Part shown: positions 10,269 to 28,362 of the stretch, piece after piece
How the letters are laid out: each line of letters opens with the position of its first letter
How positions within the stretch are numbered: the stretch's first letter is position 1
Source: Candidatus Oscillibacter pullicola
GTDB taxonomy: Bacteria > Bacillota > Clostridia > Oscillospirales > Oscillospiraceae
Direction: 5' to 3'
NCBI GenBank assembly: GCA_019118935.1
Contig: DWXY01000097.1
Location: 1-43,398, forward strand
DNA: 43,398 bases
Position numbers and translations under genes: made by a program
The notes under the pieces: model-generated
Told to the model about the DNA's origin: nothing
The model's input: the letters and a program-made list of their open reading frames with translations, nothing else
The model's database searches: none

Positions 10269-11015
10269 TTATTTCTTTACGCCACCAAACCGGCGGTCTC
10301 TCTGCTGGTAGGCTGCAATGGCCCGGTCCAGCTCCGTTTCGTCGAAGTCCGGCCACAGGGTATCCGTGTAATAAAACTCCGAATAGGCGCACTGCCACAG
10401 CAGGAAGTTGCTCAGCCGCTGCTCTCCGCTGGGCCGGATGATGAGCTCCGGGTCCGGGATCCCGGCGGAGTCCAGATAGCTGGAGAACAGGGCGTCATCC
10501 AGCTCCTCCGGCCGCTTCTCCCCGGCGGCGCAGTCGGCGGCAAACCGCCGGGCTGCCCGCAGAATCTCGTCTCTTCCGCCGTAATTCAGGCACACGTTGG
10601 CCTGGAAGTCATCCTTGGACAGGTGCTCCGTGATCTCGTCCGTCTCCCGGGCCAGGGCCCGCAGATCCGGGGCGATGGGGGTCATGTCCCCGAAGAAGTG
10701 GAGCCGGATGTGGTCCTTCTCCATGGTGTCCACTGCCTCCAGCAGATACCGCTTCAGCAGGGCCATGATGGCAGAGACCTCCGTCTCCGACCGCTTCCAG
10801 TTTTCCGTGGAAAAGGCGTACACCGTCAGGTATTTCACGCCGATGTTCTTGCAGTAAGTGGCGATCCGGCGGAAGGTCTCCGCTCCCGCCTTGTGGCCGG
10901 CGGTGCGGGGCAGGCCCCGCTTCGTGGCCCAGCGGCCGTTGCCGTCCATGATGATCGCAATGTGGCGGGGGGGCGCCAGGGCCCGCCCTGCCGCTTCGTT
11001 GATATTCTCTGGCAT
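10269..11015 (-). CDS. uppS: Isoprenyl (undecaprenyl) diphosphate synthase
   Basis: This cis-prenyltransferase condenses IPP units onto FPP to give the C55 lipid carrier of peptidoglycan. It has 248 residues. Motifs are HIAIIMDGNGRWA with the catalytic Asp, AFSTENWKR, and RPSGEQRLSNF near the C-terminus. The frame stays open far upstream into a repeat, so the start must be chosen: MPENINE (11015) is preferred over MRESI (11030) because only the former has a GAGAG sequence at suitable distance. The sequence immediately upstream is a structured repeat, so the leader differs from that of a normal frr-uppS junction. Confidence 0.95.
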   Translation of the reverse strand: MPENINEAAGRALAPPRHIAIIMDGNGRWATKRGLPRTAGHKAGAETFRRIATYCKNIGVKYLTVYAFSTENWKRSETEVSAIMALLKRYLLEAVDTMEKDHIRLHFFGDMTPIAPDLRALARETDEITEHLSKDDFQANVCLNYGGRDEILRAARRFAADCAAGEKRPEELDDALFSSYLDSAGIPDPELIIRPSGEQRLSNFLLWQCAYSEFYYTDTLWPDFDETELDRAIAAYQQRDRRFGGVKK

Positions 11016-11028
11016 GATGGATTCTCTC

Positions 11029-11445
11029 ATTTCAAAATGGATTGTTGGGGGAGCCGTCCCATTGGACGGGAAATGCGGCCATGATGATGGCTGGGCAATA
11101 CACCCCCCATTGTCGTCATCGCAAAGTCCGCTCAGCTCCGTTTCCGCCTGGGGCCAAAACTGCGCCCGCTCCCTTGCTCCTCCACTCCCCACCGCGCGAA
11201 GCGCGGCGGAGGCTCCGTATTGTTCTTGGCAAAAAGAGCACAGGCCGTGAACGGTCCAAGAGAAAAAATCCCTTTTGGTCGCAACTTCGCACATACGTGC
11301 AAAGTTGCTGTACGGGGGGCGGCGTGAGATAGTGCCTGCGTGTTTGTGCGGACCGTCCGACGGGCGCGGCGGGGCACGTCTTTGGTCGGGGTGATAAAAC
11401 GCATTCGATCTGCTTCTGTCTTCGCGCGTTCCGCTTTACCCGCAA
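11029..11445 (-). repeat. Dispersed structured repeat, module A, copy 1
   Basis: This non-coding stretch begins directly upstream of uppS. It shares blocks in the same order with 21909-22262. Read on the minus strand these are AAGCGGAACGCGCG, an ATGCGTT block, CGCCGCGCCCGTCGG, GCAGGCAC-ATCTCACGCCG, a hairpin GCAACTTTGCAC/GTGCGAAGTTGC (+ 11284-11311), an AATGGGGGG block, GCCAT/ATGGC (about 11079-11093) and CCGTCC-CATT-GGACGG (11055-11070). Copy 1 holds about 120 bases of extra sequence in its middle (11111-11230). Open frames across it resemble those in copy 2 only because the DNA is repeated; no ribosome sites or known domains are seen. Confidence 0.75.
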
Positions 11446-11628
11446 GGGGTACGCCGCATCCGTAAGGCGGCAGAGCCGCCAACGGCTGCGCAGCTGCTAC
11501 GCGCTGGCTGAATTCCATACGGCAGAGCGCCGCCGGATGCCCAGCGGCTGCGCGCTGGCTGGACAGCTGCAGAAGGGAGTCAAAGGCCCACAGCTGCTGT
11601 ATCCTGATTTGTGGAAATCAGGAGCCGC
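11446..11628. other. Gene-free GC-rich spacer with small hairpins
   Basis: No gene is supported here. Visible structures are GGCGGC-AGA-GCCGCC at 11466-11480 and CCTGATTT-GTGG-AAATCAGG at 11603-11622. The second lies just downstream (minus strand) of the 95-residue gene. It has no T-run, so it is at most a weak terminator or RNA-end hairpin. Several near-repeats of GGCTGCGC occur between 11480 and 11560. Confidence 0.5.
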
Positions 11629-11916
11629 TCAGTTCCCCTTCTCCCACCAGCGGCGGACCTGCCAGGCAAAGCGGAAGCCGCAGGCGCGGCAGTATTGGGT
11701 CTCCTCCATGGGAAACCAGGGCAGGATGAAGCGCCCACAGTTGGGGTAGCGAAGGTGACGCATTTCGATTCTTGAGAAAGCGGCTGCCGCGACAGCGCCC
11801 AAGGCCAGGAACACCAGTCCCAGTCCGCCCCGCACTCCGCCTGACAGACATAAAAGCAAAACCGTCGCGAATAGCGTTCCCCTGGCTGCCGAATACCATT
11901 TCTGCTCCAGCTTCAC
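11629..11916 (-). CDS. Small membrane protein with a CxxC/CxxC-like zinc ribbon
   Basis: This gene encodes 95 residues and starts at GTG with GAGAGGAG 8 bases upstream. Two hydrophobic stretches (about 12-28 and 31-46) are followed by a cytoplasm-like tail with YPNCG and, 15 residues on, YCRACGFRF. This is half of a normal zinc ribbon plus a single Cys, so metal binding is uncertain. No family is recognised. It starts 15 bases after the 160-residue gene and is probably co-transcribed with it. Both genes interrupt the normally adjacent frr and uppS and lie between repeat modules A and B. Confidence 0.65.
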   Translation of the reverse strand: MKLEQKWYSAARGTLFATVLLLCLSGGVRGGLGLVFLALGAVAAAAFSRIEMRHLRYPNCGRFILPWFPMEETQYCRACGFRFAWQVRRWWEKGN

Positions 11917-11931
11917 AAAGACACTCCTCTC

Positions 11932-12414
11932 TCAATCAGTCGGCAGGTCCAGCAGGACATTCATCTGTTCGACGGCCTCGGCCAGATCGCAGCCTTTCAG
12001 CTGGTAGCAGGCATAGCCCAAGCTCCAATCCCCCACATACAGGGGCGTATACAGCAGTCCATCGGAGCGAAGGTCAAACCGCGCGTCCAGCACACCCTGA
12101 TCGCCCTCCGCGTGGTTGAGCCAGAAGGAGTAGACCTGCTGGCCCCCGGACCAGGAGATGTTCCGCTGGCGGCCGTAGAAATGGACGGTGCCCTCCTCCA
12201 GCTCCGCCAGCAGCGGCGCGATCTCCGCCCGGCTGGGCCGGGCCTCCCGTACAGCGTCTGTTCCACCCACAAAGGCGATGACGAGAAACTCCGTGGCCCG
12301 GTCCGAGTGGGCGAACTCCCGAAAGGGCACCGGGCGCAGCAAAACCGCCACTGTCACCGCCAGCAGGACCAGGCACCCCAGCCATCGGCTGTGTTTCTCA
12401 ATCCAGCGTCCCAC
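11932..12414 (-). CDS. Hypothetical protein with one N-terminal membrane anchor
   Basis: This gene encodes 160 residues from a GTG start, with a strong AAAGGAG ribosome site 9 bases upstream. A single hydrophobic helix (about 12-28, LGCLVLLAVTVAVLL) anchors a predicted external domain of about 125 residues rich in beta-type sequence (GTVHFYGRQRNISW, VYSFWLNHAEG, LYVGDWSLGYACYQL). I recognise no domain. It is the first of a two-gene unit with the 95-residue zinc-ribbon membrane protein and lies just inside repeat module B. Base composition is like its neighbours. It may be cargo of a repeat-bounded insertion or simply a lineage-specific gene. Confidence 0.7.
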   Translation of the reverse strand: MGRWIEKHSRWLGCLVLLAVTVAVLLRPVPFREFAHSDRATEFLVIAFVGGTDAVREARPSRAEIAPLLAELEEGTVHFYGRQRNISWSGGQQVYSFWLNHAEGDQGVLDARFDLRSDGLLYTPLYVGDWSLGYACYQLKGCDLAEAVEQMNVLLDLPTD

Positions 12415-12454
12415 ACTGTTCGCTCCTTTCTGTAGGCCCCATAAAGCACTAATT

Positions 12455-12732
12455 CAGCGGCAGCGAAAATCGGCGCTGGTCCATACGACGACCGCCCCGA
12501 CGAGGTCGGCACCATCCGCCACGGAACGGCAGTTGGGGGAATCGCAGAAGGCCATAGCGTGCCCGAAGGCCAGCCCAAATCGGCGCTTGCACCGATCCGC
12601 CGACTCCCGTCAGCGCGGAGGACCACTGCCCCGGAGCGCGTCTAAAGCGATTTTTCTCTTCCACCGGGCGCGGCACATCCCCCGTGGAAACGGCCCCTGC
12701 GGGAGCAGGATCACCCCGTCCGGCGGCCCGCA
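12455..12732. repeat. Dispersed repeat, module B, copy 1
   Basis: About 280 bases match 22452-22778 closely on the same strand: CAGCGGCAGCGAAAA at one end, the block CCCCGACGAGGTCGG, CCATCCGCCACGG, AATCGGCGCTTGCACCGATC, CGCCGAC, TTTTTCTCTTCCACCGGGCG and a final CCGGCGGCCCGC. Copy 1 lacks the 40-base CTTTTTGG...CCAAAAAG hairpin present in copy 2. It lies between frr and the 160-residue gene. No coding sequence is supported. Confidence 0.8.
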
Positions 12733-12842
12733 TCTCCCCCAGGTGACCGCACATCCCCAGTCCCTGAAAGGGTGCCGGCACCTTTAAAACGCGCAATGCC
12801 CCCGGCGGGCAGCCGTGCTCCCGCCGGAGGCCCCGGCGGCTT
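12733..12842 (-). other. frr downstream spacer with GC-rich stem
   Basis: Directly after the frr stop (minus strand) a long GC stem can form between CTCCGGCGGG and CCCGCCGGGGG (about 12794-12825), followed by GCGCGTTTTAAAGG. It may act as the frr terminator, but the T-run is short and about ten bases away from the stem. Confidence 0.35.
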
Positions 12843-13400
12843 TTACACCGCCATCAGTTCCTTTTCCTTTTTGGCCAGCAGGGCGTCCAGCTCCTTGCAG
12901 CTGTCGTCCGTCAGCTTCTGGAGATCCTTTTCCGCCTGCTTCAGATCGTCCTCCGTGATCTCGGAGGCCTTCTCCTTCTTCTTGAACGCCTCCATAGCGT
13001 CCCGGCGGATGTTGCGGATGGCCACCTTGCCGTTCTCCGCGTACTTGTGAATCTGCTTCACCAGCTCCTTGCGGCGCTCCTCCGTCAGCTGGGGGAAGCT
13101 CAGCCGGATGCTGGCGCCGTCGTTCTGGGGGTTGATGCCCAGATCGGAGTTCTGGATGGCCTTTTCAATGCTCTTCACCGCTGTCTTATCCCAGGGAGAG
13201 ATCAACAGCGTCCGGGCGTCGGGGGAGGAGATGGCCGCGATCTGCTGGATGGGCGTAGGGCTGCCGTAGTAGTCCACCATGATCCGGTCCAGCACGGAGG
13301 CATTGGCCCTGCCCGCCCGCACGGAGGCAAAGTCCGCGGCCACGGAGTCGATGCTCTTCTTCATCTTGCCCTCGTAAATCTTGTAATCTTCCTTCAGCAT
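12843..13400 (-). CDS. frr: Ribosome recycling factor
   Basis: This 185-residue protein of standard length releases ribosomes from mRNA after termination together with EF-G. The three-helix-bundle arms are evident (KMKKSIDSVAADFASVRAGRANASVLD; the C-terminal coiled part DLKQAEKDLQKLTDDSCKELDALLAKKEKEL), as is the conserved PTPIQQIA / DARTLLISPWDK region. The ribosome site is AAAGGAAGG. It lies 60 bases after pyrH. The usual next gene, uppS, is displaced by about 1.8 kb of repeats and two small genes. Confidence 0.98.
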   Translation of the reverse strand: MLKEDYKIYEGKMKKSIDSVAADFASVRAGRANASVLDRIMVDYYGSPTPIQQIAAISSPDARTLLISPWDKTAVKSIEKAIQNSDLGINPQNDGASIRLSFPQLTEERRKELVKQIHKYAENGKVAIRNIRRDAMEAFKKKEKASEITEDDLKQAEKDLQKLTDDSCKELDALLAKKEKELMAV

Positions 13401-21908: not shown

Positions 21909-22262
21909 GGATTTCAATGGGGGATGGGAGTGCGTCCCATTGGACGCGGAATTCAGCCATGCTGATGGCTGGGCAGATGCGCCCCCCATTTTCTTTTTGA
22001 GACATCAAAAAGAAAATGCGCCGCGCCCGGTGGAAAAGAAAAAATGTTGGGCGCAAACTTGCACGTGCGTGCAAGTTTGCTTAAATACGAGGGTCGGCGT
22101 GAGATGGTGCCTGCGGGTTTGCGAGGACTGGCCGACGGGCGCGGCGGGGTGCGGTGGCAACTTGAATGCTGATTCCCGCGGCACAGGTGCGGTGGTCAAC
22201 GGGGTGCAAGAACGCATTTGACATGCTTCTCTTTCCGCGCGTTCCGCTTCGCTACGCGCTGC
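21909..22262 (-). repeat. Dispersed structured repeat, module A, copy 2
   Basis: This is the partner of 11029-11445, in the same orientation and likewise directly upstream of a minus-strand gene. Hairpins are GCGTCC-CATT-GGACGC (21932-21947), AGCCAT-GCTG-ATGGCT (21955-21970), CATTTTCTTTTTG/CAAAAAGAAAATG (21987-22018) and a perfect 12-bp stem GCAAACTTGCAC/GTGCAAGTTTGC (22051-22078). Arms differ from copy 1 at several positions but pairing is largely kept. The apparent short open frame here has no ribosome site. Confidence 0.78.
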
Positions 22263-22715
22263 CCGGGCGGTCGTGGGGGCCTGTATCGGCAGGCCGATGA
22301 GGGCATCGGTCCCTACGCTGGGGTGGTGGCCTTCGGCGACCTCGCAAGGGCCGACACATAGATCGGCCCTACGGATGGGTTAGGTCCCCTTCTACTCTGT
22401 AGGGGCGGATGCCCTCATCGGCCCGTTGCACCAACTCCCGCGCGGGACAGCCAGCGGCAGCGAAAAGAGGAGCAGCTCAATGCGACGACCACCCCGACGA
22501 GGTCGGAACCATCCGCCACGGGACGGCAGTTGCAAACTCGCAGAAGCCCCTAGCGCGCCCGAAGGCCAGGCAAAATCGGCGCTTGCACCGATCCGCCGAC
22601 CCCCGTCGCGCGCGGAGGGCCACTGCACCGGAGCGCGCTAAGCGCCTTTTTCTCTTCCACCGGGCGCGGCGCATTCTCTTTTTGGGCAAGACCAAAAAGA
22701 GAATGGGGGGCGCAT
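21977..22715. mobile_element. MITE-like element bounded by ~68-bp inverted repeats
   Basis: Bases 21977-22044 and the complement of 22646-22715 are nearly the same sequence. The shared order is ATGCGCCCCCCATT, a CTTTTTG/CAAAAAG hairpin, GCGCCGCGCCCGGTGGAA and an A-rich end. They enclose about 600 bases with no gene: the hairpin part of module A, a run of small palindromes and most of module B. Long, nearly identical inverted ends around non-coding DNA suggest a non-autonomous mobile element. Target-site duplications could not be found by eye. Confidence 0.6.
22263..22451. repeat. Cluster of small palindromes (GTAGGGGCGGAT-type)
   Basis: This gene-free stretch is made of short inverted repeats: GGCCTG-TATCGG-CAGGCC (about 22288-22305), a GAGGGCATCGG-TCCCTACG unit, AGGGCCGA-CACATAGA-TCGGCCCT (about 22347-22370) and TGTAGGGGCGGATGCCCTC (about 22400-22418). 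These resemble the dispersed GTAGGG(G)C-CGAT units common between genes in this bacterial group. I infer nested repeats inside the larger element. Confidence 0.5.
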
Positions 22716-22778
22716 CCCGCATGGACAATGCCCCCTGGCGGGAGCCAGACCCCCGTGGCCAACCTCCGGCGGCCCGCC
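22452..22778. repeat. Dispersed repeat, module B, copy 2
   Basis: It matches 12455-12732 along its length, with an additional hairpin (CATTCTCTTTTTGG ... CCAAAAAGAGAATG, 22672-22705) that copy 1 lacks. That hairpin is followed by GGGGGGCGCAT and is the right inverted end of the element. It lies about 90 bases beyond the thrC stop and may also terminate thrC transcription on the minus strand. Confidence 0.75.
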
Positions 22779-25288: not shown

Positions 25289-25525
25289 TCAGTACTCCAA
25301 TACAATCTTGTGGCAGGCACGGCAGACATAGCCGCGCACTTCAGAACGGTTTGGCAGGCTGCTGTTATAGGGGCCGTCCAATACAATCCCGCCCTGCTTT
25401 TCCACGCCGCGCTCGGAGGCCCAAAGCCCCACCTTACCGCCGGGCGGCAGAAAATAGAGGCCACGGCTGGAATCCGTATACAAAATGCCCCGCTCCATCT
25501 CTTTTCCGCATACAGGACAGTTCAC
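25289..25525 (-). CDS. Small zinc-ribbon protein, DUF6487-like, paralog A
   Basis: This gene encodes 78 residues from a GTG start with GGAGGGAG upstream. It begins NCPVCGKEMERG and ends VCRACHKIVLEY, so two CxxC pairs frame a beta-rich core containing GGIVLDGPY. This is the architecture of the DUF6487 family; the assignment is from memory of the pattern. It has no known function. It is the last of three tandem copies and the most diverged. Its stop is one base before the rnhB start. Confidence 0.75.
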   Translation of the reverse strand: MNCPVCGKEMERGILYTDSSRGLYFLPPGGKVGLWASERGVEKQGGIVLDGPYNSSLPNRSEVRGYVCRACHKIVLEY

Positions 25526-25576
25526 CAGTATGTCTCCCTCCGTACGTGCGCGTAAACCCGAAGGCCCACGTCCATC

Positions 25577-25813
25577 CTACCAATACTCCATAACGATCTT
25601 CTTACAAGCGCGGCAGACCCAGGCGGGAAGCCAGGTCCGGTTGTCGCGGAACGTCATCGGTCCGTCCAGCACAATGCCGCCGTCCGCCTCGATGTTCCGC
25701 TTGGTATAAAACGTACGGAGGTCCTTCTCTCCCGGCATGAAAAAGAGGCCGATGCTGTTCTTGGTGATGATATGACCCTTTTCCATCTCATTTCCGCAAA
25801 CTGGACAGTTCAT
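25577..25813 (-). CDS. Small zinc-ribbon protein, DUF6487-like, paralog B
   Basis: This gene encodes 78 residues starting MNCPVCGNEMEKG and ending VCRACKKIVMEYW. It has the same two CxxC pairs and GGIVLDGP core as its neighbours. The ATG is chosen because all three paralogs begin with NCPxCG; an open frame reaches 19 codons further upstream. The spacer before it is a diverged copy of the spacer before paralog A, so the duplication unit included the intergenic sequence. Confidence 0.78.
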   Translation of the reverse strand: MNCPVCGNEMEKGHIITKNSIGLFFMPGEKDLRTFYTKRNIEADGGIVLDGPMTFRDNRTWLPAWVCRACKKIVMEYW

Positions 25814-25863
25814 AGGTGCGCCTCCTCTCACGTATGCGCATAAGCCGGACAGCCCACATCCAT

Positions 25864-26103
25864 TCACCAATACTCCATAACAATCTTCTTACAACTGCGG
25901 CAGACCCAGGCGGGGCGTTCCAAAGAACCGGCATCCTTCGGACTGGTATACGGGTCCTTGAGCACAATCCCGCCCCGCTTCTCAATGCCGCCCGTGGTAA
26001 GCCATTTCAGCTTTGGCGCATCCTGGGGCAGAAAATATTCCCACATCCCGAAGGTATTCAGAAATCCAGATTCCATCTCATTTCCGCAAATCGGGCAATT
26101 CAT
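25864..26103 (-). CDS. Small zinc-ribbon protein, DUF6487-like, paralog C
   Basis: This gene encodes 79 residues, MNCPICGNEMESG to VCRSCKKIVMEYW, with the conserved GGIVLKDPYTS core. It starts 12 bases after rbgA and is the first of the triplet. C-terminal DNA is nearly identical to paralog B (AATACTCCATAAC-ATCTTCTTAC), while the middle has diverged, suggesting duplication followed by change in the loop between the zinc half-sites. Confidence 0.78.
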   Translation of the reverse strand: MNCPICGNEMESGFLNTFGMWEYFLPQDAPKLKWLTTGGIEKRGGIVLKDPYTSPKDAGSLERPAWVCRSCKKIVMEYW

Positions 26104-27080: not shown

Positions 27081-27698
27081 TCAGTCGATCCCCGTAATGG
27101 GGCCGATACGGCCGAAGTCCCGCTGCCCGGTGGCCTCATCCGCGCCGGGAAACAGCAGGAACACCGCCTTGCCGATGACATACCGGATGTCCACCGTGCC
27201 CAGGTCGCTGCTGCGGCTGTCGCTGGAGTGGTTCCGATTGTCGCCCATGACGAAAATGGAACCCTCCGGCACTGTCAGGGGAAACTCCGTCCCCTCCTCC
27301 ACATAGGTGGGCTCGTTGATATAGTCCTCCTCCAGCAGCTCCCCGTCCACATAGACGGCGCCGGAGACGAAGTCGATGTCCACCGTCTGGCCCTCCGTGG
27401 CGATCACCCGCTTCACGATGGGCTCCTCCAGGAAGGTGTCCTTCCGTAGTACCACGATATCGCCGTACTGGTAGTTGCTGTCCAACATGGCGTTCAGCAC
27501 CAGCAGCCGGTCTCCGTCCTGCAGAGTGGGCACCATGGAGTGGCCGTCCACGCCGATGAGCCGGATGACGAAGGTGAACAGCAGCACCACCGCCAGCACG
27601 GAGCACACCAGCGCCTGGGCCCACTCATACAGGTCCCGGCCCTCCTCCTTTTCCGGGGACGCCTCCTGTGTCTCCTGCTTCTTCTCTTTCTTCCACAT
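27081..27698 (-). CDS. lepB: Signal peptidase I, copy 1
   Basis: This 205-residue membrane-anchored signal peptidase has one N-terminal helix (about 28-48), catalytic Ser54 in GHSMVPTL and Lys96 in IVKRVIATEGQ, and the later boxes GDIVVLRK, FVMGDNRNHSSDSR and GKAVFLLFPG. It removes signal peptides from exported proteins at the outer face of the membrane. It lies 70 bases after a second, very similar copy, and both retain all catalytic residues. The ribosome site is GGAGG. Confidence 0.96.
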   Translation of the reverse strand: MWKKEKKQETQEASPEKEEGRDLYEWAQALVCSVLAVVLLFTFVIRLIGVDGHSMVPTLQDGDRLLVLNAMLDSNYQYGDIVVLRKDTFLEEPIVKRVIATEGQTVDIDFVSGAVYVDGELLEEDYINEPTYVEEGTEFPLTVPEGSIFVMGDNRNHSSDSRSSDLGTVDIRYVIGKAVFLLFPGADEATGQRDFGRIGPITGID

Positions 27699-27768: not shown

Positions 27769-28362
27769 TTATGTCAGCGGGCCGATCCTGCCGAAGTCCC
27801 GCTTGTCGGTGTCCGCCGTCACGCCGGGGAACAGCAGGAACACCGCCCGGCCCAAAATCTGCCGGGTATCCACCGGCCCCAGCTCCGGGTCCCGGCTGTC
27901 ATCGCTGTCGTTGCGGTTGTCGCCCATGACGAAGACGCAGCCCTCCGGCACGGTGACGGGGAACTCCAGCCCCTCCTCCAGATAGGTGGGCTGGCGGATG
28001 TAGTCCTCCTCCAGCAGCTGACCATCCACATAGACGGCGCCGGCGGCAAAGTCGATGTCCACCGTCTGGCCTTCCGTGGCGATCACCCGCTTCACGATGG
28101 GCTCCCCGTCCTTGAAGCTCTCCTTCCGGATGATGACGATGTCCCCGGCCTCAAACCCGCCGCACAGGTGGGCGTTCACCACCAGCAGGCAGTCCTGGTG
28201 CTGGAGCGTCTCCCGCATGGAGGGGCCGGACACCAGCACCACCCGCGCCGCAAAGGTGAACAGCAGCACCATTGCCGTCACGGCGCACACCAGCACCTGC
28301 ACCCACTCGTACAGCCCGCGGAGGGAAAGCGCGTCCCTGCTGAGCCGTTTTCCTCCCCGCAC
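27769..28362 (-). CDS. lepB: Signal peptidase I, copy 2
   Basis: This gene encodes 197 residues with catalytic Ser48 (SGPSMRETL) and Lys91 (IVKRVIATEGQ) and the family boxes GDIVIIRK, FVMGDNRNDSDDSR and GRAVFLLFPG. The open frame begins at a GTG at 28395, but that has no ribosome site. The GTG at 28362 is preceded by GGAGGAGG at 7 bases and is preferred. The middle and end are close to copy 1, while the substrate-contact segment after the serine differs. A consensus-like promoter lies just upstream. Confidence 0.95.
   Translation of the reverse strand: MRGGKRLSRDALSLRGLYEWVQVLVCAVTAMVLLFTFAARVVLVSGPSMRETLQHQDCLLVVNAHLCGGFEAGDIVIIRKESFKDGEPIVKRVIATEGQTVDIDFAAGAVYVDGQLLEEDYIRQPTYLEEGLEFPVTVPEGCVFVMGDNRNDSDDSRDPELGPVDTRQILGRAVFLLFPGVTADTDKRDFGRIGPLT

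Follow-up and report, generated by a model that had tools for sequence, protein, structure and literature searches.

A dispersed, probably MITE-like element of the Oscillibacter group whose ends carry the sequence signature of an intrastrand triple helix

Why should a hairpin-rich, non-coding stretch of DNA lie directly upstream of uppS, and why should a second version of it be found some 11 kb away on the same contig? The question arises from 43,398 nucleotides of Candidatus Oscillibacter pullicola (assembly GCA_019118935.1, contig DWXY01000097.1), the whole of which is called the window here. A preliminary description singled out positions 11029–11445 and 21909–22262 as two copies of one structured block, and saw in them either an undescribed structured leader or an RNA-bearing mobile element. 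The two loci are probably copies, one intact and the other decayed, of a non-autonomous MITE-like element that is dispersed in the Oscillibacter/Dysosmobacter group and has ends that would fold as triplexes.

Two copies of one element in the window

The blocks common to the two loci do exist, in collinear order: 11230–11374 matches 22006–22149 (75.7% identity, 3e-22), 11055–11114 matches 21933–21993 (85%, 2e-11) and 11387–11436 matches 22200–22249 (82%, 2e-6). Both stems quoted in the preliminary description are present, with the base changes it gave. The stem CCGTCC/GGACGG at 11054–11069 in copy 1 corresponds to GCGTCC/GGACGC at 21932–21947 in copy 2 and, on the plus strand, GCAACTTCGCAC/GTGCAAAGTTGC at 11281–11308 (copy 1, one mismatch) corresponds to GCAAACTTGCAC/GTGCAAGTTTGC at 22054–22081 (copy 2). 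At both loci the element does end right before a minus-strand gene, a little ahead of the start codons of uppS and of a calcineurin-like phosphoesterase (Pfam). Three features had gone unnoticed: a second (B) half of each element (12455–12678 against 22452–22674, 87% identity), some 60 BLAST matches across the organism's own genome, both window copies included, and the loss from both ends of copy 1 of the hairpin formed by the arms W and R described below. Nine near-full copies of this genome align over about 860 bp as a B half, a middle of variable length and an A half, so the block first described is half of an element.

Copy 2 is intact and occupies 21916–22776 on the minus strand. Alignment with the eight other near-full copies of the same genome divides it into a B half (22430–22776), the variable middle and an A half (21916–22270). 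Each end of an element is one core unit of about 75 nt, the two units being inverted with their 3′ sides outward. Read 5′ to 3′ on the outward strand, the core consists of a pyrimidine tract T, a trinucleotide that is mostly CCA or GGA, the stem-loop CCG-NNNN-CGG, a pyrimidine arm W, a short loop, a purine arm R that pairs with W, a G-run and a 4-nt tail that pairs with the tetraloop; compensatory changes are found in both pairings. The A-end core of copy 2 (21975–22048, minus strand; model R1, 80.7 bits, E 4.1e-18) is made up of T at 22044–22034, the tetraloop GGCG at 22027–22024, W at 22018–22005, R at 22000–21987, further Gs at 21986–21982 and the tail CGCA at 21981–21978. Its B-end core, which has the opposite orientation (22642–22717, plus strand; 80.3 bits, E 5.2e-18), has T at 22647–22656, GGCG at 22663–22666, W at 22672–22685, R at 22692–22705, further Gs at 22706–22710 and CGCA at 22711–22714. 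In each of the two cores the parallel match of T to R is 10 bases long. On the 5′ side of the A-end T lies a hairpin, H0 (22054–22081, minus strand), which was read from the sequence and whose stems differ yet stay paired in other copies; the outer hairpins H3 (21932–21947) and H2 (21954–21971) together cover 21932–21971 on the minus strand, and H2 varies elsewhere with its pairing kept.

Copy 1 is decayed and split into an A half (11029–11445) and a B half (12455–12710), both on the minus strand. As BLAST and alignment place them, the A half retains H3 (11054–11069), a remnant of H2 (11076–11093) and H0 (11281–11308). Its core remnant (11208–11272, minus strand) keeps T and CCG-TTCA-CGG and has lost the R arm, while the remnant in the B half (12646–12710, plus strand) is without the hairpin; R1 gives these 27.8 and 24.0 bits, against the scores above 80 bits of copy 2. 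Folded as RNA, the two end regions of copy 2 reach z values of −4.5 and −3.7 against shuffles, with MFE programs that omit the triplex, while the outer stretch of copy 1 is not special (z −0.7) and its H0 stretch reaches −3.5. The middle of copy 1 (11446–12454, about 1 kb) holds two small minus-strand ORFs (11630–11926 and 11932–12414) of no Pfam family, and most of it has similar counterparts in the frr-uppS spacers of genomes G018 and G068, part of it in those of G060 and G079. The site of the lost R arm is taken by a separate repeat module (about 11100–11230, minus strand), which recurs on contigs C79, C101 and C25 of the same genome, the C79 and C101 matches lying within a few bases of contig ends. 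Elsewhere, the window holds two direct repeats, 27100–27632 / 27779–28314 (536 aligned bases, 76% identity) and 25494–25627 / 25782–25914 (82%), each perhaps a gene duplication.

Is the element then a leader of uppS, as had been proposed? That reading was rejected on the following ground. From a search of 61 genomes of the genus 30 loci were fetched; both frr and uppS were located in 29, and in 21 of them the two genes overlap and leave no space for the element. Five loci, that of the window's genome included, have spacers of 1.2–2.1 kb; among the remaining ones, G062 carries a core-like hairpin without the tetraloop and two have other inserts. Other copies adjoin unrelated genes, and the uppS site is one of dozens. 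At 11446–12842 of the window, the junction at which the two genes overlap in most loci inspected holds a spacer with the two small ORFs noted above.

Sequence evidence for a hairpin, a loop-tail lock and a third strand

The two pairings of the core were examined by comparison of its variants. The first core finder returned 64 candidates, two of which were set aside as false, and 23 of 30 non-redundant cores were aligned, seven being omitted to keep the alignment clean. In these 23 cores two-sided changes occur at 8 of 13 pairs of the W-R helix and at 3 of 4 pairs of the loop-tail helix. The covariation score is reached by none of 500 shuffles and falls from 0.364 to 0.157 or less when the partner is shifted by 1–3 columns; further pair types are no more numerous than in shuffled data, where the observed count is reached 436 times in 500. 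The CCG/CGG stem is invariant in the aligned cores and is required by the finders. A set of 107 distinct hairpins, none dropped by hand, has two-sided changes at 9 of the 10 inner W-R pairs, in 1 to 31 hairpins each; the percentage paired in this set is no test, because its finder demands 7 of 8 pairs. Between loop and tail, at least three of four pairs form in 152 of 156 cases, against a shuffle mean of 138.1 and maximum of 146, a baseline that is high because TGCA dominates. The partners nevertheless change together (TGCA/TGCA, GGCG/CGCA, TCCA/TGGA, TGAA/TTCA, CCAG/CTGA), with TCAA/TTGA in a genome from a second genus. This pairing may be either a pseudoknot or a substitute for the CCG/CGG stem.

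Some further properties of the core concern its flanks and its strand. A run of four Cs with GTA lies 5′ of the core in 61 of 262 cores, compared with 0.84% of random 90-mers, and this nearly invariant C-run (CCCCCGTA) could plausibly pair with the G-run. Asymmetry of G·T wobbles was considered as proof of the folding strand and dropped, because the finder accepts G·T as a pair and most cases fall on one closing pair, outside which the counts are too small. The core does not have the layout of an intrinsic terminator, since what comes after the W-R hairpin is a G-run, not a U-tract, and the pyrimidine tract lies 5′ of it.

What sets the core apart is the tract T, which is the mirror image of W and could lie parallel to R with T·A and C·G contacts. 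In the largest set (262 unique cores with the named loci added, giving 127 distinct combinations of T and R arm), the perfect parallel run of T along R at a fixed register averages 10.4 nt. Shuffling R brings the mean to 5.31 (sd 0.22, maximum 5.98 of 1000), and shuffling it within equal arm length to 6.17 (sd 0.24, maximum 7.03). The best antiparallel run, taken over all registers, averages 8.99; parallel wins in 101 of the 127 combinations, ties in 22 and loses in 4. Six columns switch between T·A and C·G, for instance 92/31 with four exceptions and 27/95 with five. Register 0 matches 84.5% of positions over 117 cores and 81.4% over 70 non-redundant combinations. In the 117 cores no other parallel register scanned (−4 to 0) goes above 55%, and no antiparallel one (−6 to 0) above 48%. 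An earlier set of 134 cores (138 less four without clear tracts) had parallel ahead of antiparallel in 123, with 10 ties and one loss, and a mean run of 10.63 compared with 7.69 (sd 0.13) for shuffled partners, none of 500 shuffles reaching the observed value.

Could so long a match come merely from the low complexity of pyrimidine and purine tracts? This is hardly credible: the tract TTTTCTTTT is its own mirror, for which reason some copies cannot separate parallel from antiparallel (the ties number 10 of 134 and 22 of 127), but the asymmetric tracts are decisive, with parallel against antiparallel runs of 16 and 9 at L139, 15 and 9 at L223 and 14 and 9 at L141, and shuffles that preserve the tracts lose the match, the observed run length being reached by 0 of 500 and 0 of 1000.

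Read from its 5′ side, the core has the Hoogsteen pyrimidine tract first, the pyrimidine arm of the hairpin second and the purine arm last, with the third strand running parallel to the purines; at the sequence level this is the order of class IV. The core is, in its sequence, the signature of an intrastrand pyrimidine-motif triplex of this class, with a loop-tail lock. We know of no copying process that generates mirror repeats, and a triplex is the only structural reason known to us for the mirror symmetry of T and W; it presumably does form. Selection for structure, which the preliminary description had suggested from two copies, gains strong support from the covariation of the W-R helix, the loop-tail pairing and the third strand, and it is very likely that what has been selected is the folding of one strand, triple helix included. 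To our knowledge, natural triple helices backed by co-evolving bases have rarely been documented.

Around the core, the outer hairpins vary in their own way. H0 lies 5′ of T in many copies and has several unrelated stem sequences; among 40 distinct segments behind the C-run and GTA, 39 are more stable than their own mononucleotide shuffles, with means of −19.8 and −8.8 kcal/mol. H2 has the form CAGCNNN/NNNGCTG. Of 261 distinct stretches downstream of cores, 93 contain it, 88 of these with full pairing, and it has at least six sequence variants (CAGCCAT, CAGCTAT, CAGCTAG, CAGCTGG and others). The exact ends of the element are less sure, since H2 and H3 lie behind many cores, not all, and some cores run straight into a gene. 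After the core of L211, H3 (CGCCCGCAAGGGC and variants) stands three times in a row; H3 may therefore be a small repeat in its own right or a target for insertion.

Distribution, paired ends and insertion sites

Further copies are present genome-wide and genus-wide. In the organism's own genome (2.65 Mb, 161 contigs), BLAST finds 60 matches to copy 1, in separate modules, 63 to copy 2 and 60 to the segment 22430–22790. On contigs C79, C101, C117 and C98 the matches stop at most four bases from the contig ends; the assembly may therefore be interrupted by the element, and the true copy numbers may be higher. Of 86 genomes of the genus, model R1 detects cores in 63, with a maximum of at least 56 in one genome. 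In the family they occur in 31 of 300 genomes and 19 of 106 genera at E ≤ 0.001 (best E below 1e-6 in 16, the rest weak), in the order in 3 of 394 genomes, one of them from another family with 8 copies, and in the phylum in 1 of 398, the organism's own; R1 searches of more than 40 genomes used stricter filters, by which weak matches are lost. The exact core pattern occurs in at least 113 stretches of the named sequence collection, and the titles among the 80 matches listed are Oscillibacter, Dysosmobacter, unspecified Oscillospiraceae and one "Clostridia bacterium." The cultured laboratory strain Oscillibacter sp. 1-3 is among the carriers.

Elements mostly measure about 0.45–1.2 kb. In six genomes, 135 cores at E ≤ 1e-5 form 41 neighbour pairs less than 2.5 kb apart, of which 38 are outward, none inward and three tandem. 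The outward pairs are spaced 387–1116 bp from start to start and take up 76 of the 135 cores, the other 59 lying outside such a pair; matches with E above 1e-5 were omitted from this count, and some would add outward pairs (for instance G013 C4 127415/128438 and C5 103729/104548; G060 3077209/3077752). Among the 80 matches listed for TGCA-loop cores, no outward pair exceeds 1.11 kb. Spacings of about 1.4 kb are known in three cases: copy 1, a pair on C101 of the same genome, whose interior has a ribbon-helix-helix-like ORF (by reading) and a second small ORF without a Pfam match, and L251 of G005, with XRE genes inside. Like a MITE, the element has inverted, outward-facing terminal repeats around a short non-autonomous body. 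An autonomous copy was sought in the interiors of pairs and not found: no transposase was recognised in those examined among the 38 pairs, where the longest ORF listed has 203 aa, ten of the longest interior frames have no Pfam match, and the other interiors, read by eye, held no convincing ORF.

Some interiors and flanks hold a regulator. An XRE-type HTH gene lies inside the pair (4) or abuts it within 300 bp with its 3′ end toward it (10) in 14 of the 38 pairs, and one further pair has an XRE gene with its 5′ side toward it. Random placements give 0.27%; the HMM was seeded from core-adjacent XRE genes, so that one such gene in 400 kb may understate the control rate, and the P of 1e-26 is optimistic. 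The count per genome is the safer statement: 5 of 5 pairs in G060, 3 of 4 in G074, 2 of 4 in G032, 2 of 3 in G085, 2 of 12 in G013 and 0 of 10 in G082. Of the five small ORFs beside an interior XRE gene, those of L249, L312 and L313 pass the Pfam cut-off for DUF6809 and those of L248 and L316 fail it. At L197/L324, three tandem XRE genes are all directed at one core pair.

Of the earlier proposal of an RNA-bearing mobile element, half has support. Mobility agrees with the number of copies, with the inverted ends that face outward and with a contrast at one orthologous site, where one genome has the element and another lacks it; as to RNA, a single-stranded DNA fold is equally allowed. The contrast concerns the rpmA-obg spacer, which measures 973 bp in G005, with a core pair, XRE and DUF6809, and 96 bp in G083, the two genomes being 94.6% identical in rpmA and 91.0% in obg. 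This single site hints, weakly, at gain rather than precise loss. Over the 18 of 30 loci with both genes found, the spacer ranges from 96 to 1224 bp, and it is possibly an insertion hot spot. In G005 and G032 (L263, L264, L312) an XRE/DUF6809 cassette is enclosed there by cores. Inspection of loci by eye, the rpmA-obg empty-site comparison included, revealed no target-site duplication. Taken as a whole, it is likely that the cores are the ends of a mobile element.

Mechanism, alternatives and known systems

How might such an element work? Each complete copy is bounded by two inverted copies of the presumed folding module, with their 3′ sides outward. On the outward-reading strand R would pair with W as a hairpin, T would lie on R as a Hoogsteen third strand (U/T·A and C·G), and the CCG-NNNN-CGG tetraloop would lock onto the four bases after the G-run, with H0, H2 and H3 flanking the triplex in many copies. 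The folded end, as single-stranded DNA or RNA, would be recognised by a putative trans-acting enzyme that moves the element between intergenic sites, and some copies carry a small XRE-type regulator between their ends, with or without the DUF6809 ORF.

MITEs, BIMEs and the BOX-type mosaic repeats of pneumococci are non-coding, with inverted ends, tens of copies and mosaic modules. The Oscillibacter element resembles them in all of this and differs in the triplex and loop-tail covariation of its ends; no parent transposase was recognised in the interiors examined and no target duplication at the loci inspected. In the RNA triplexes of riboswitches, telomerase RNA and ENE elements, a U·A-U third strand lies on a helix beside pseudoknot-like pairing, an arrangement similar to the one proposed here, but those are not dispersed repeats, and an RNA form of the Oscillibacter element is putative.

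The module could instead act as RNA, a transcribed 5′-UTR or 3′-UTR element whose triplex stabilises the mRNA or regulates a neighbour, its dispersal being secondary. In the gene-bearing cassettes (L248, L249, L312, L313, L316) the XRE gene and a small ORF diverge, and each of them leads in sense orientation into a core; many cores lie directly 5′ of a start codon (by eye, uncounted), H0 is stable as noted above in 39 of 40 segments, and RNA, according to PMC4666352, can form triplexes of the pyrimidine but not of the purine motif. We nonetheless consider this reading somewhat unlikely: neighbour genes differ, an XRE gene outside the pair is antisense to the core in 10 of 14 cases, the element is absent from frr-uppS in most relatives inspected, and no Rfam family reaches its gathering score anywhere in the window (at relaxed E over 10950–12900, two matches of E 3.5–4.4 fall far under the gathering scores and outside 11029–11445).

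Intrastrand triplex repeats are already described in enterobacteria, as BoxC/PIT/TMECO (Holder et al., 2015, PMC4666352). In that paper the TMECO motif is G/C-rich and of the purine type, has loops of 3–6 nt and strong sequence conservation, and is reported not to be associated with transposons; its loci rearrange more than control sites, and some lie in inverted pairs. The Oscillibacter element might be a DNA-instability repeat of this sort, a motif of the same physical kind, intergenic and multi-copy, whose triplex stalls replication and promotes rearrangement and which spreads by recombination rather than transposition. This is unlikely, as the pairs here lie 0.4–1.1 kb apart in fixed orientation (38 outward, 0 inward) and the element also conserves H0, the loop-tail pairing and H2 and in some copies carries cargo genes. 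The likeness lies in dispersed intergenic multi-copy repeats, sometimes inverted, of which one strand folds into a hairpin plus third strand. In contrast to TMECO, the Oscillibacter element is A/T-rich with class IV order on the outward strand, its spacer exceeds 10 nt and carries the tail-pairing tetraloop, its third strand co-varies, and its ends are paired 0.4–1.1 kb apart, in some copies around cargo. Its core consensus also differs from the purine-motif consensus CCCTCNCCC..GGGNGAGGG..GGGNGAGGG given for TMECO/BoxC (PMC4666352). Class IV (Hoogsteen–pyrimidine–purine) there makes up 4% of predictions, and the prediction limits loops to 1–6 nt, and would therefore miss the spacer of the Oscillibacter core. 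The fold is thus of a known kind in another lineage; the co-evolving third strand, the loop-tail lock, the paired outward ends and the cargo have no counterpart that we noticed in PMC4666352. A full-text literature search returned no paper that describes the Oscillibacter element by title or abstract opening.

IS200/IS605 elements have structured single-stranded ends, which are not inverted, and a tetranucleotide pairing with a guide-like loop. A resident Y1/RAYT (REP-type) transposase acting on folded single-stranded ends would fit the likeness to this chemistry, but it is very improbable, since the ends here are inverted and Y1 (PF01797), the one transposase searched for genome-wide, is present in 36 of 86 genomes of the genus, does not track core copy number and is absent from the core-rich G005, G006, G020, G036, G106 and G062.

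We return to the MITE-like element with triplex-folding ends. It may, more tentatively, represent a previously undescribed class of mobile element, with ends that are recognised in folded single-stranded form, as a class IV triplex locked by a tetraloop-tail pairing that co-varies like guide and site, moved in trans by a putative enzyme and spreading XRE/DUF6809 cassettes through the Oscillospiraceae. Natural intramolecular triplexes have usually been proposed from the symmetry of single sequences. Here, more than 100 distinct variants, each with a third strand that follows its purine arm position by position, provide comparative evidence of the type used for RNA helices. This makes the question whether genomic triplex repeats do anything a testable one, and it points to a putative new mobility system in common gut bacteria.
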